Positions 19,376 to 59,818 of a stretch of DNA of 64,000 nt are shown in pieces. The stretch is from Archangiaceae bacterium (GTDB lineage Bacteria > Myxococcota > Myxococcia > Myxococcales > Myxococcaceae): NCBI GenBank assembly GCA_016879935.1, contig JAACJQ010000258.1, positions 1 through 64,000 on the forward strand, read 5' to 3'. Under the pieces are notes generated by a model. It was given only the letters and a program-made list of their open reading frames with translations. It was not told the origin of the DNA and did no database searches. A program made the position numbers and the translations under genes. The stretch's first letter is position 1; every line of letters begins with the position of its first letter.

Positions 19376-20026
19376 TCAGCGGAGTGACAGCAGCTCGATC
19401 GGCGACTCGATGATGTGACGCGCGCCCGCGTTGGCGAGCTCTTCGCGCCCGCGAAAACCCCACACGCACCCGACGCTCCGCATGCCGGCGTTCTTCGCCG
19501 TGTTCACGTCGACGGCCGTGTCTCCGACGAAGGCGATGTTCACCGGCAGCACGTTCAACGCGAGGGCGAGCTCGTAGGCGGCGGTCGGGTCGGGCTTGCG
19601 CGGCACGCCTTCACGCTCACCGCGAACGTCGACGAAGTGCCACCGCGAGAACTGCTTCGCCACCAGCGCGCGTGTGAAGTCGTCACGCTTGTTCGACAGC
19701 ACGGCCAGCTTCACCTTCGCGGCGGTCAGCCCGTCGAGCAGCTCAGGAATGCCGGCGTAGGGCTTCGTGTGCGGGTAATCGAGCCTCGCGTAGTGCGCCC
19801 GGTAGGTGTCGGCGATGGCCTTCAGCGTCTGCGGGTTCGACTCGGGAGTTGCGGCCCGGCGCACCATCGTGTCGACGCCCTCCCCCACGAAGGTGCGGTA
19901 CGCGTCGATGGAGTGCGTCGGCAGCTTGAAGTCGGTCAGCGCCAGGTTCATCGCCTCGGCGAGATCGCGCAGCGAGTCGGCGAGCGTACCGTCGAGATCG
20001 AAGATGACGGCTTGAAACGGCAGCAT
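19376..20026 (-). CDS. gph: HAD-family phosphatase, phosphoglycolate-phosphatase-like
   Basis: 216 residues. HAD motifs are all present: FDLDGTLADS (nucleophile Asp), VLSNKRDD, KPDP and FVGDTAVDVNTAKNAG. The cap domain (EGVDTMVRRA) and length fit phosphoglycolate phosphatase (Gph), but close relatives act on other small phosphomonoesters, so the substrate is inferred. The ATG overlaps the stop of the upstream DUF1801 gene (ATGA), making a two-gene operon. It converges on the GGDEF regulator across 32 bp. Confidence 0.85.
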   Translation of the reverse strand: MLPFQAVIFDLDGTLADSLRDLAEAMNLALTDFKLPTHSIDAYRTFVGEGVDTMVRRAATPESNPQTLKAIADTYRAHYARLDYPHTKPYAGIPELLDGLTAAKVKLAVLSNKRDDFTRALVAKQFSRWHFVDVRGEREGVPRKPDPTAAYELALALNVLPVNIAFVGDTAVDVNTAKNAGMRSVGCVWGFRGREELANAGARHIIESPIELLSLR

Positions 20027-20601
20027 CAGACCGCGCCCGACGACGGGTCCTGCACGTTCAGCATGACGGCCTGCCGCACCAGCGCCTGCAGCACGTTTTC
20101 TTTCAGATCGTCGAGCGACGCGACCGAGATGGCGCGCGAGTCACCGTCTCCGGCGAGGGTGCCTTCGGGCGCCTCGAGCTGCGCACCGCGCAGGAACGTC
20201 ACCAGCACCTCGCGATCGCTCGCCTCGATGCGGGCGAAGAGGCCATTGGCGTCGTACGCAGGCCCGTTCGGGTCGAGCAGCTCGCGCGCCTCGGGCGCCG
20301 CATCACGAACGACCTGACGCAGCTTGTTCACGATCGGCACCACCGGCGGCGGCAGGCTGCGCACGTAGCCCTCGATCTCGGGCAGCTCGGGCAGCTTCAC
20401 AGGTGGGTACGTCTTCGGCGCGGCGGCCTTCTTCGCCGGCGCCGCCTTCTTCGCAGCCGCCTTCTTCACAGGCTTCGGCGCCGCCTTCTTCTTCGGCGCC
20501 GGCTTCTTCGCCTTCGAAGCCTTCGCGACCTTCACCGGCTTCTTGATCTTCGACTTCGCCTTCGGGGTCTTGCCCCGCTTCGCGTTCTTCCTGGCGGCCA
20601 T
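20026..20601 (-). CDS. DUF1801-type protein with histone-like Lys/Ala tail
   Basis: 191 residues. Residues 1-65 are almost only Lys, Ala and Pro (for example PKKKAAPKPVKKAAAKKAA), like eukaryotic histone H1 tails and some bacterial nucleoid proteins. The rest (about 70-191) is a DUF1801/YdhG-like domain: LPPPVVPIVNKLRQVVRDAAPE, then EVLVTFLRGAQL. The basic tail suggests nucleic-acid binding; the role of the domain is unknown. A second DUF1801 protein without the tail lies at 23428. The gene is divergent from the FrnE-like gene across 87 bp. Confidence 0.8.
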   Translation of the reverse strand: MAARKNAKRGKTPKAKSKIKKPVKVAKASKAKKPAPKKKAAPKPVKKAAAKKAAPAKKAAAPKTYPPVKLPELPEIEGYVRSLPPPVVPIVNKLRQVVRDAAPEARELLDPNGPAYDANGLFARIEASDREVLVTFLRGAQLEAPEGTLAGDGDSRAISVASLDDLKENVLQALVRQAVMLNVQDPSSGAV

Positions 20602-20688: not shown

Positions 20689-21318
20689 ATGAACACGCCC
20701 GTCATCACCATCTGGTCCGACTACGTCTGACCGTGGTGCTACATCGGCCTCGGCGAGGTCGAAAAGCTGAAGCGAGAGTGGGACTTCACCGTCGACTGGC
20801 GCCCGTTTCTCCTGCGCCCCGAGACACCTGACGAAGGGCTGCCGCTGCCCGATCGCGTGAAGGCCTACATGGCCAACCCGAACAACCCGCTCACCACGCG
20901 CGCTGAGGCGATGGGCCTGACGATGGTGCACGATCGCGAGCTCATTCCCTCGACGCGGCGCGCGCACCAGGCCGCCGAGTACGCGCGGTCGAAGGGCGCG
21001 TTCGACCGGTTCCACCACTCGGTGCTCGAGCGGTACTGGACGAAGGGCGAGAACCTTCACGAGTGGAGCGTGCTCCGTGCGGCGGCGGCCGATGCCGGTC
21101 TCGACGGAGACGAGCTGCAACGCGAGGTCGAATCCGGGAAATGGAAGCCGGTGATGGAAGCCGGCCTCGCGGCGGCTTCGGAGCTCGGCGTACACGCCGT
21201 GCCGACCTTCATCGTGGGCAACAGGTTCGTCATTCAGGGCGCGCAGGACTCGCAGGTGTTCGCGCACGCTTTGGAGCGGCTGGGCTTTGCTCCGCGGAGT
21301 AAGACGCCGGGCCCATGA
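20689..21318 (+). CDS. FrnE/DsbA-like oxidoreductase with in-frame TGA, candidate selenoprotein
   Basis: 210 codons including the stop. From ATG 20689 the reading is MNTPVITIWSDYV, then TGA (codon 14), then PWCYIGLGEVE and an uninterrupted frame to 21318. FrnE-type DsbA proteins have DYxCPWCYxG here, so the TGA replaces the first active-site Cys and the motif becomes U-P-W-C (C17 intact). The thioredoxin-fold cis-Pro lies at about P172 (HAVPTFIVGNRFVIQGAQ). Such proteins catalyse thiol-disulfide exchange. A hairpin of SECIS type follows (20744-20762). If TGA is a plain stop, this is a pseudogene. The stop overlaps the next gene (ATGA). Confidence 0.82.
20728..20730 (+). other. In-frame TGA, candidate selenocysteine codon
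   Basis: Codon 14 of the FrnE-like gene, in frame with the ATG at 20689 and the stop at 21318. It sits at the catalytic Cys of the CxxC motif, the position at which selenoproteins of thioredoxin-fold families carry selenocysteine. Confidence 0.75.
20744..20762 (+). promoter_or_regulatory. Candidate bacterial SECIS hairpin
   Basis: Bases 20744-20751 (TCGGCCTC) pair with 20755-20762 (GAGGTCGA) to make an 8-bp stem (one G-U pair) with loop GGC at 20752-20754. The loop begins 21 nt after the TGA and its first bases are G, as in the known bacterial SECIS consensus recognised by SelB. It lies inside the coding region, as bacterial SECIS elements do. selB, selA, selC and selD are not in this window. 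Confidence 0.65.
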
Positions 21319-22133
21319 CGCCCACCGCCCAATGTGCGCTGCACCCTGATCGCGCCGCAACTTCGGTCTGCCCGCGGTGTGGCGCGTTCACCTGCGGCGA
21401 GTGCAACCCCGATGGGCGTAGCCAGTGCCCGACCTGCCAGCAGGTGACGGGCGCGAGCAGCAGCACGCCGGTGCCGACCCCGTGGGAGCGCCGCGCCGAG
21501 CTGGGTCTCGTGCAGGCCGTCTGGCAGACGTGGAAGCAGACGATCGTCGAGCCGAAGAAGTTCTGGGCCGAGCTCGACCCGAACGGCTCGGGAATGGACG
21601 CGTTCCTCTATGGCTGGGTGATCACCAGCGCGGCGGGGCTGCTGCAGATTCCCTTCCTCATCTTGAACCTCGCACAGTCGGCCTCTCAGTTCCGCGAGCT
21701 GGGCAGAACGATGAAAGACGTGCCTGCGCCGATGCAGGCGATGTTCGACTTCTTCCAGACGAGTCCGCTCATTCTGGCCATCGTGCTGGGCGTCTCGACG
21801 ATCGTGCTCTTCCCGTTGTCGATGATGTTCTCGACCGCATTGGTGCACCTCGGGGTTCGCATGGCGGGCGGCACGCAGTACCCGTTCTCGACGACGCTGC
21901 GGGCCATCTCGTACGCCGTCGCGCCGAACGTGCTGCAGGGCATTCCCGTCATCGGCGGCTTCGCGGGCATCTACACGCTGGTGCTCGAGATCTGGGCCAT
22001 TCGTGATGCGCACAAGCTCACGACCGCGCGCGCGGCCATCGCCGTTCTGTGGCCGCTGGTGCTCTTCTGCTGCTGCGGCGTCGGCGGAGCGATCTTCTTC
22101 GGCGCCGCCCTCGCCTCCCAGCTCGGCAAGTGA
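21315..22133 (+). CDS. Zinc-finger plus YIP1-type membrane protein
   Basis: 272 residues. Residues 7-45 form a B-box-like zinc finger (CALHPDRAATSVCPRCGAF, then CGEC and CPTC). A linker and about five transmembrane segments follow (around 95-265), in a YIP1-like arrangement, with LGVRMAGGTQYPFSTTLRA between segments. The function in bacteria is unknown. The ATG overlaps the stop of the FrnE-like gene (ATGA), so expression depends on that mRNA. It converges directly on the RDD gene, whose N-terminal finger is similar. Confidence 0.8.
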   Translation: MTPTAQCALHPDRAATSVCPRCGAFTCGECNPDGRSQCPTCQQVTGASSSTPVPTPWERRAELGLVQAVWQTWKQTIVEPKKFWAELDPNGSGMDAFLYGWVITSAAGLLQIPFLILNLAQSASQFRELGRTMKDVPAPMQAMFDFFQTSPLILAIVLGVSTIVLFPLSMMFSTALVHLGVRMAGGTQYPFSTTLRAISYAVAPNVLQGIPVIGGFAGIYTLVLEIWAIRDAHKLTTARAAIAVLWPLVLFCCCGVGGAIFFGAALASQLGK

Positions 22134-59365: not shown

Positions 59366-59818
59366 TCACTCGCTGTCGGGCCCCACCGCGATGATGTCGT
59401 CGCGGAGCACGTCGGGTGACAGGCAGGTCTTCTCTTCATCGGCCATGTCGGCGAGCAGCTCGGTGGCGAACGTGCGCACCTCTCTGGCCCACTTCGCGGG
59501 GTCGCTCACCGCGTCCATCTGGGCGAGCCGCGTGACCTGCTTGCGCTGCGTGGTGTGCTCTTCGTCCATCGAGGCGACGCGGGCTGGGCCCCACGCGTCG
59601 ATCGTCTGCAGCACGGGTCGAAGAATGCGCTCCTCGTGCTCGATGTGGCGAATGAAGCTCTCGAGCAGCGACTGCAGCGCGTGGTGCGTGTCCTTGATCG
59701 CGGCGACGTCTCCCGAGGCGACGAGCTCGAGCTTCGACTCGATGCCCCGCATGCCGATGCGAAGGCCCTCATGCTCGACGAGGATGATGCGGCGAATCTT
59801 GCTGTGCTCCAGGCTCAT
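59366..59818 (-). CDS. Hemerythrin-like domain protein
   Basis: 150 residues, all helical. His and Glu residues for a di-iron site are seen in RIILVEHEGLRIGM, FIRHIEHEERILRPVL and MDEEHTTQRKQ. Such proteins bind oxygen or protect iron-sulfur enzymes. The start is ATG 59818, five bases after AGGAGG. It lies 10 bp downstream of nuoN and 33 bp upstream of the ferredoxin, so it is probably made with complex I. Confidence 0.85.
   Translation of the reverse strand: MSLEHSKIRRIILVEHEGLRIGMRGIESKLELVASGDVAAIKDTHHALQSLLESFIRHIEHEERILRPVLQTIDAWGPARVASMDEEHTTQRKQVTRLAQMDAVSDPAKWAREVRTFATELLADMADEEKTCLSPDVLRDDIIAVGPDSE

Follow-up and report, generated by a model that had tools for sequence, protein, structure and literature searches.

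A FrnE-type oxidoreductase gene of Myxococcota with a predicted selenocysteine active site and probable repeated Sec-to-Cys change

In the 64,000-nucleotide stretch of an Archangiaceae genome analysed here (the window), a forward-strand gene at 20689-21318 almost certainly encodes a cytoplasmic FrnE-type oxidoreductase of the DsbA family with selenocysteine (Sec) at codon 14, where UGA would be decoded via SelB and a nearby hairpin. The sequence-only reading of this DNA described it as a Sec form of a family usually known with Cys; that such a form would be new is not supported by the literature, where DsbA-like selenoproteins of COG2761 go back to 2005. What is new here concerns evolution, namely a probable repeated Sec-to-Cys change, and novelty is otherwise modest. 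The source assembly, a draft of 9.5 Mb, comprises 445 contigs, and its nearest named relatives are Myxococcaceae metagenome-assembled genomes (MAGs).

Active site, predicted fold and proposed mechanism

The gene, assigned as a selenocysteine FrnE/DsbA-like thiol-disulfide oxidoreductase of 209 residues from Pfam, AlphaFold and structure matches, contains a sole in-frame TGA at codon 14 (20728-20730), is open throughout the rest of its length and terminates in TGA at 21316-21318; reading through the frame thus bore out what the sequence-only reading had described. The protein reads MNTPVITIWSDYV-U-PWCYIG...HAVPTF..., and its Pfam match to PF01323 (DSBA) spans the TGA (residues 6-195, E 2.4e-33). 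The earlier proposal that the TGA substitutes the first catalytic Cys also held, as codon 14 aligns with the first Cys of CPWC in relatives, and the other features then listed are intact: codon 17 (TGC, 20737-20739), the resolving Cys of the UPWC motif, which occupies an invariant alignment column and is the only Cys in the protein; codon 172 (CCG, 21202-21204), the cis-Pro of the VPTF loop, with P172 and T173 invariant; and a C-terminus that runs cleanly to the stop. With a DSBA domain, UxxC for CxxC and a cis-Pro loop, the protein belongs with FrnE/COG2761. No signal sequence was seen ahead of the active site, suggesting a cytoplasmic protein. No NCBIfam model passed, the only match being to the (seleno)lipoprotein model NF041057 (score 30.9; cut-off 190), and a promoter scan found nothing.

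An AlphaFold model built from an alignment of the protein and its relatives (pLDDT 95.3, pTM 0.90) places Sec14 just ahead of helix 15-27, at the start of the active-site helix. In the thioredoxin fold, the residue just before this helix is the usual site of the attacking residue. The best match in the PDB was FrnE of Deinococcus radiodurans (DR_0659; PDB 5cnw, 5co3, 5coh, 5cp1, 5xwh), which has the same fold (Foldseek E 5e-16; VIA-align Z 24.9 over 206 residues) at 28% identity, and whose gene has been assigned to COG2761 (PMC1978522). When its CPWC is aligned, Sec14 takes the place of Cys22 and Cys17 corresponds to Cys25, and both proteins are placed in the cytoplasm. As a cytoplasmic oxidoreductase, the D. 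radiodurans protein shows disulfide isomerase and insulin-reducing activity, and a mutant in which its gene is disrupted shows sensitivity to cadmium and diamide (PMC8945050). It differs from the window protein in carrying a C-terminal CxxxxC motif (residues 239-244), proposed to aid regeneration of the active site; the motif is likewise missing from FrnE of D. maricopensis and S. roseofulvus (PMC8945050) and is therefore not family-defining.

In the mechanism that we propose, SelB with Sec-tRNA-Sec would decode the UGA at 20728-20730, helped by the hairpin at 20744-20762, and the ribosome would pass the codon and proceed to the stop at 21316. By analogy with the family, Sec14 would attack a substrate disulfide or another oxidised thiol, Cys17 would resolve the mixed selenenylsulfide and a cellular reductant would restore the selenolate-thiol pair; because the C-terminal CxxxxC is absent, regeneration would have to come from outside the protein, presumably from an external reductant. 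Its likely role would be to repair oxidised thiols during oxidative stress, where Sec would allow faster exchange than Cys.

Selenocysteine machinery and conservation of the TGA

The Sec reading put forward from the sequence is supported by the Sec machinery, by TGA in other genomes, by the aligned Cys and by purifying selection. When selA, selB, selD and tRNA-Sec were sought in the genome, all were present, with selB split across two contigs. The tRNA-Sec carries the anticodon TCA (UCA) and scores 72.3 bits (cut-off 47), SelA and SelD were matched at E 3.8e-171 and E 2.7e-115, and the N-terminal half of SelB at E 2.4e-88. Of the SelB match, residues 1 to 412 lie on one contig (C27) and the last part on another (C58), and the ends of the two contigs overlap exactly over 87 nt, so that a full SelB gene is present. 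The one clear FdhA of this genome (G000:C237:13775-15802, L202) has no internal stop and was ruled out as a Sec form; it is thus apparently not FdhA that sustains the machinery here. SelD has one internal TGA in many other Myxococcota (e.g. L128) and none in the window's genus, and seems to be itself Sec or non-Sec by lineage.

We surveyed the codon in 99 relatives and then in 195 genomes of the phylum. TGA stands at codon 14 in all seven genomes of the window's own genus and in many further Myxococcota, including genera g2, g5, g7, g8, g16, g18, g23 and g26 of the same family and g38 and g44 of another; Cys forms occur in genera g13, g16, g17, g23 and g26. In the species collection, the two best matches come from Myxococcaceae MAGs (76% and 68% identity) and carry TGA, and the next-nearest have TGC or TGT. 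As the TGA-bearing genomes include single-contig assemblies, the codon is no sequencing fault. A FrnE-type gene in TGA form is present in 41 of the 99 genomes, every one of them with SelA (41/41). SelA, SelB and tRNA-Sec occur together in 34 of the 41, and the remaining seven, several of which are incomplete drafts, each lack one of SelB or tRNA-Sec. A further 12 of the 99 genomes are without all three, and none has a TGA form; one of these (G048) has TGT at the site in a FrnE paralogue (L137), and its genus relatives with the machinery have TGC (L135, L140, L141) or TGA (L133).

These distributions bear on the possibility that UGA is read through by some other route, with Cys or Trp inserted or a suppressor tRNA at work instead of Sec. 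Readthrough of any kind would keep the frame, but this reading is very improbable: the gene itself terminates in TGA, every TGA form sits in a genome where SelA was found, the members read have only TGA, TGC or TGT at codon 14, the presence of the hairpin follows that of the TGA, and G048, with no matches to SelA, SelB or tRNA-Sec, has TGT in its FrnE paralogue. We give hardly any credence to a translation start 3' of the TGA, for example at GTG 20857, which would leave the TGA in an untranslated leader and yield a shorter, Cys-less protein. A 153-residue open reading frame from that GTG does appear in the mechanical list, but the first strand and the active-site helix would be lost, conservation at the protein level extends over codons 1-13 and 15-17 (SDYV-PWC is invariant or almost so), and the Cys relatives have one uninterrupted gene. 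That the gene is a pseudogene, its TGA a nonsense mutation with a dead or decaying frame beyond, could draw on the position of the TGA near the frame start, but is exceedingly unlikely and, on the sequences compared, already refuted by conservation across genera: the TGA and the full-length frame are kept across several genera, the TGA members read stay open through the domain, and 3' of the TGA there is no decay of codons, within-genus dN/dS of 0.13-0.36 (dS 0.7-1.0) placing the downstream frame under purifying selection.

The SECIS-type hairpin

Downstream of the Sec codon, the forward strand can form a hairpin of bacterial SECIS type, UCGGCCUC-GGC-GAGGUCGA (20744-20762), with an 8-bp stem and a GGC apical loop (20752-20754) that lies 21 nt after the UGA. 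The bSECIS model allows a loop of 3-9 nt, an upper stem of 4-16 bp and a UGA-loop distance of 16-37 nt, with G in the first two loop positions (PMC13188914), and the 8-bp stem, 3-nt GGC loop and 21-nt spacing of the window hairpin all fit it. All eight pairs are intact in 17 of 19 distinct Sec forms versus 2 of 19 Cys forms (Fisher p 1.7e-6; the sequences are related, not independent, and this kinship overstates the p-values for the hairpin). Compensatory changes were found at two pairs (C-G to U-A in three sequences, U-A to A-U in L132), and the covariation score was reached by none of 500 shuffles. In every Sec form the loop starts with G followed by G or U, and most Cys forms differ.

Single sequences carry a weaker signal. 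Against synonymous recodings of the same peptide, the hairpin was weakly better (P ranging over 0.005-0.13 among Sec forms, with 0.08 in the window sequence), most single sequences were not significant, and the fold energy was unremarkable (z -0.4 to -1.4). This weakness is attributable to a G+C-rich gene and to the peptide YIGLGEVE, which favour such a stem; the case for the putative SECIS element is thus one of Sec-versus-Cys comparison and covariation only. Rfam RF00031, a model of the eukaryotic SECIS element, gave zero matches in the window's own genome; it was equally silent in the controls, so this null result is uninformative.

Known relatives and Sec/Cys evolution

DsbA-like selenoproteins of COG2761 with a UxxC motif were first described as a family of nine sequences in a 2005 study of the Sargasso Sea (PMC1088965), and recur as 'DsbA 1' (63 sequences) in a 2008 ocean survey (PMC2398784), as the row 'DsbA-like protein 41 45' in a 2016 survey (PMC5029168), which we take to mean 45 genes in 41 organisms, and as DsbA-like protein form 1 (PF01323, UxxC) in a 2026 review (PMC13188914). 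The window gene shares with prokaryotic DsbA-like selenoproteins a DSBA domain, UxxC with Sec for the N-terminal catalytic Cys, an in-frame UGA followed by a bacterial SECIS hairpin, and widespread Cys homologues. Compared with the Sargasso family as described, it represents a myxobacterial branch with its own hairpin, UCGGCCUC-GGN-GAGGUCGA. Anaeromyxobacter dehalogenans was credited in 2006 with a protein that is likewise a myxobacterial DsbA-like selenoprotein (PMC1794560), possibly a member of a paralogous UPFC branch found in other families of the order.

Members of this second, paralogous branch of FrnE-like selenoproteins have the motif UPFC or UPYC (L133, L134, L136, L138, L142-L147, L149, L151-L154, L156) and a hairpin of their own, AGCAGCCUGGUCAGGCUGC with a GGUC loop, which resembles the SECIS of E. 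coli fdhF; at E 1e-20 the genome of the window yielded no member of the branch. A third TGA-bearing branch has the motif UPWCYLS and occurs in family f7 (L148, L150, L155). One record, 'Comamonas sp. KCTC 72670' (L023), holds a gene that groups with Myxococcus, and its organism name is probably wrong. Automatic annotation is likely to truncate or miss such genes in myxobacteria, so that the size of myxobacterial selenoproteomes is probably understated.

A tree of 81 proteins, built with the Sec/Cys column masked and rooted on Cys forms of Chloroflexota and Spirochaetota, requires six state changes, to be read as one Sec gain and five losses or as two gains and four losses. The former was obtained in ~70% of bootstrap trees when gains were kept low; eight gains with zero losses are allowed by 74 of 1000 bootstrap trees, a minority that makes the Sec-to-Cys direction likely, not proven. 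Relic hairpins in Cys orthologues lend support to reversion from Sec: 8/8 pairs persist around a GCC loop in L117, L188 and L189, and 7/8 pairs around a CAG loop in L175 and L191. Upstream of the window gene on the reverse strand lie a divergent gene for a DUF1801 protein with a Lys/Ala/Pro-rich N-terminus (20026-20601) and a gene for a HAD-family, phosphoglycolate phosphatase-like phosphatase (19376-20026), both conserved neighbours of Sec and Cys orthologues. As genera g1, g13 and g16 have this pair next to Sec and Cys orthologues alike, replacement there took place at one locus, with no swap of paralogues.

The FrnE selenoprotein of Myxococcota thus probably had one origin followed by some four to five reversions from Sec to Cys, mostly in species that keep the machinery and in some cases with relic hairpins left behind. 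A survey from 2006 counted 15 Sec-to-Cys events in four families and zero for DsbA-like proteins (PMC1794560), and in bacteria the change is regarded as rare and documented mainly for FdhA and SelD (PMC13188914). We found no report of repeated Sec-to-Cys change in the DsbA-like/FrnE selenoprotein family in the literature searched. If true, this history of a UxxC thiol oxidoreductase would clearly run counter to the view that such families change almost exclusively in the Cys-to-Sec direction. Close species with Sec or Cys at the same locus, among the same neighbours, offer a natural experiment on the benefit of selenium, and the same comparison bears on how a SECIS element decays once unneeded.

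Other coding frames across a TGA were also sought in the window, and the candidates were without a clear Cys-like active site. Several, including those at 59368 (-) and 23425 (+), have a coding-like base composition on both sides of the TGA, and the majority resemble normal gene ends or shadow frames. Immediately downstream of the oxidoreductase gene lies a Yip1-domain gene with an N-terminal Cys/His cluster (21315-22133, +), whose ATG overlaps the oxidoreductase stop (ATGA, 21315-21318), an overlap from which the two genes may be translationally coupled; their order is kept in near relatives (L098-L100).
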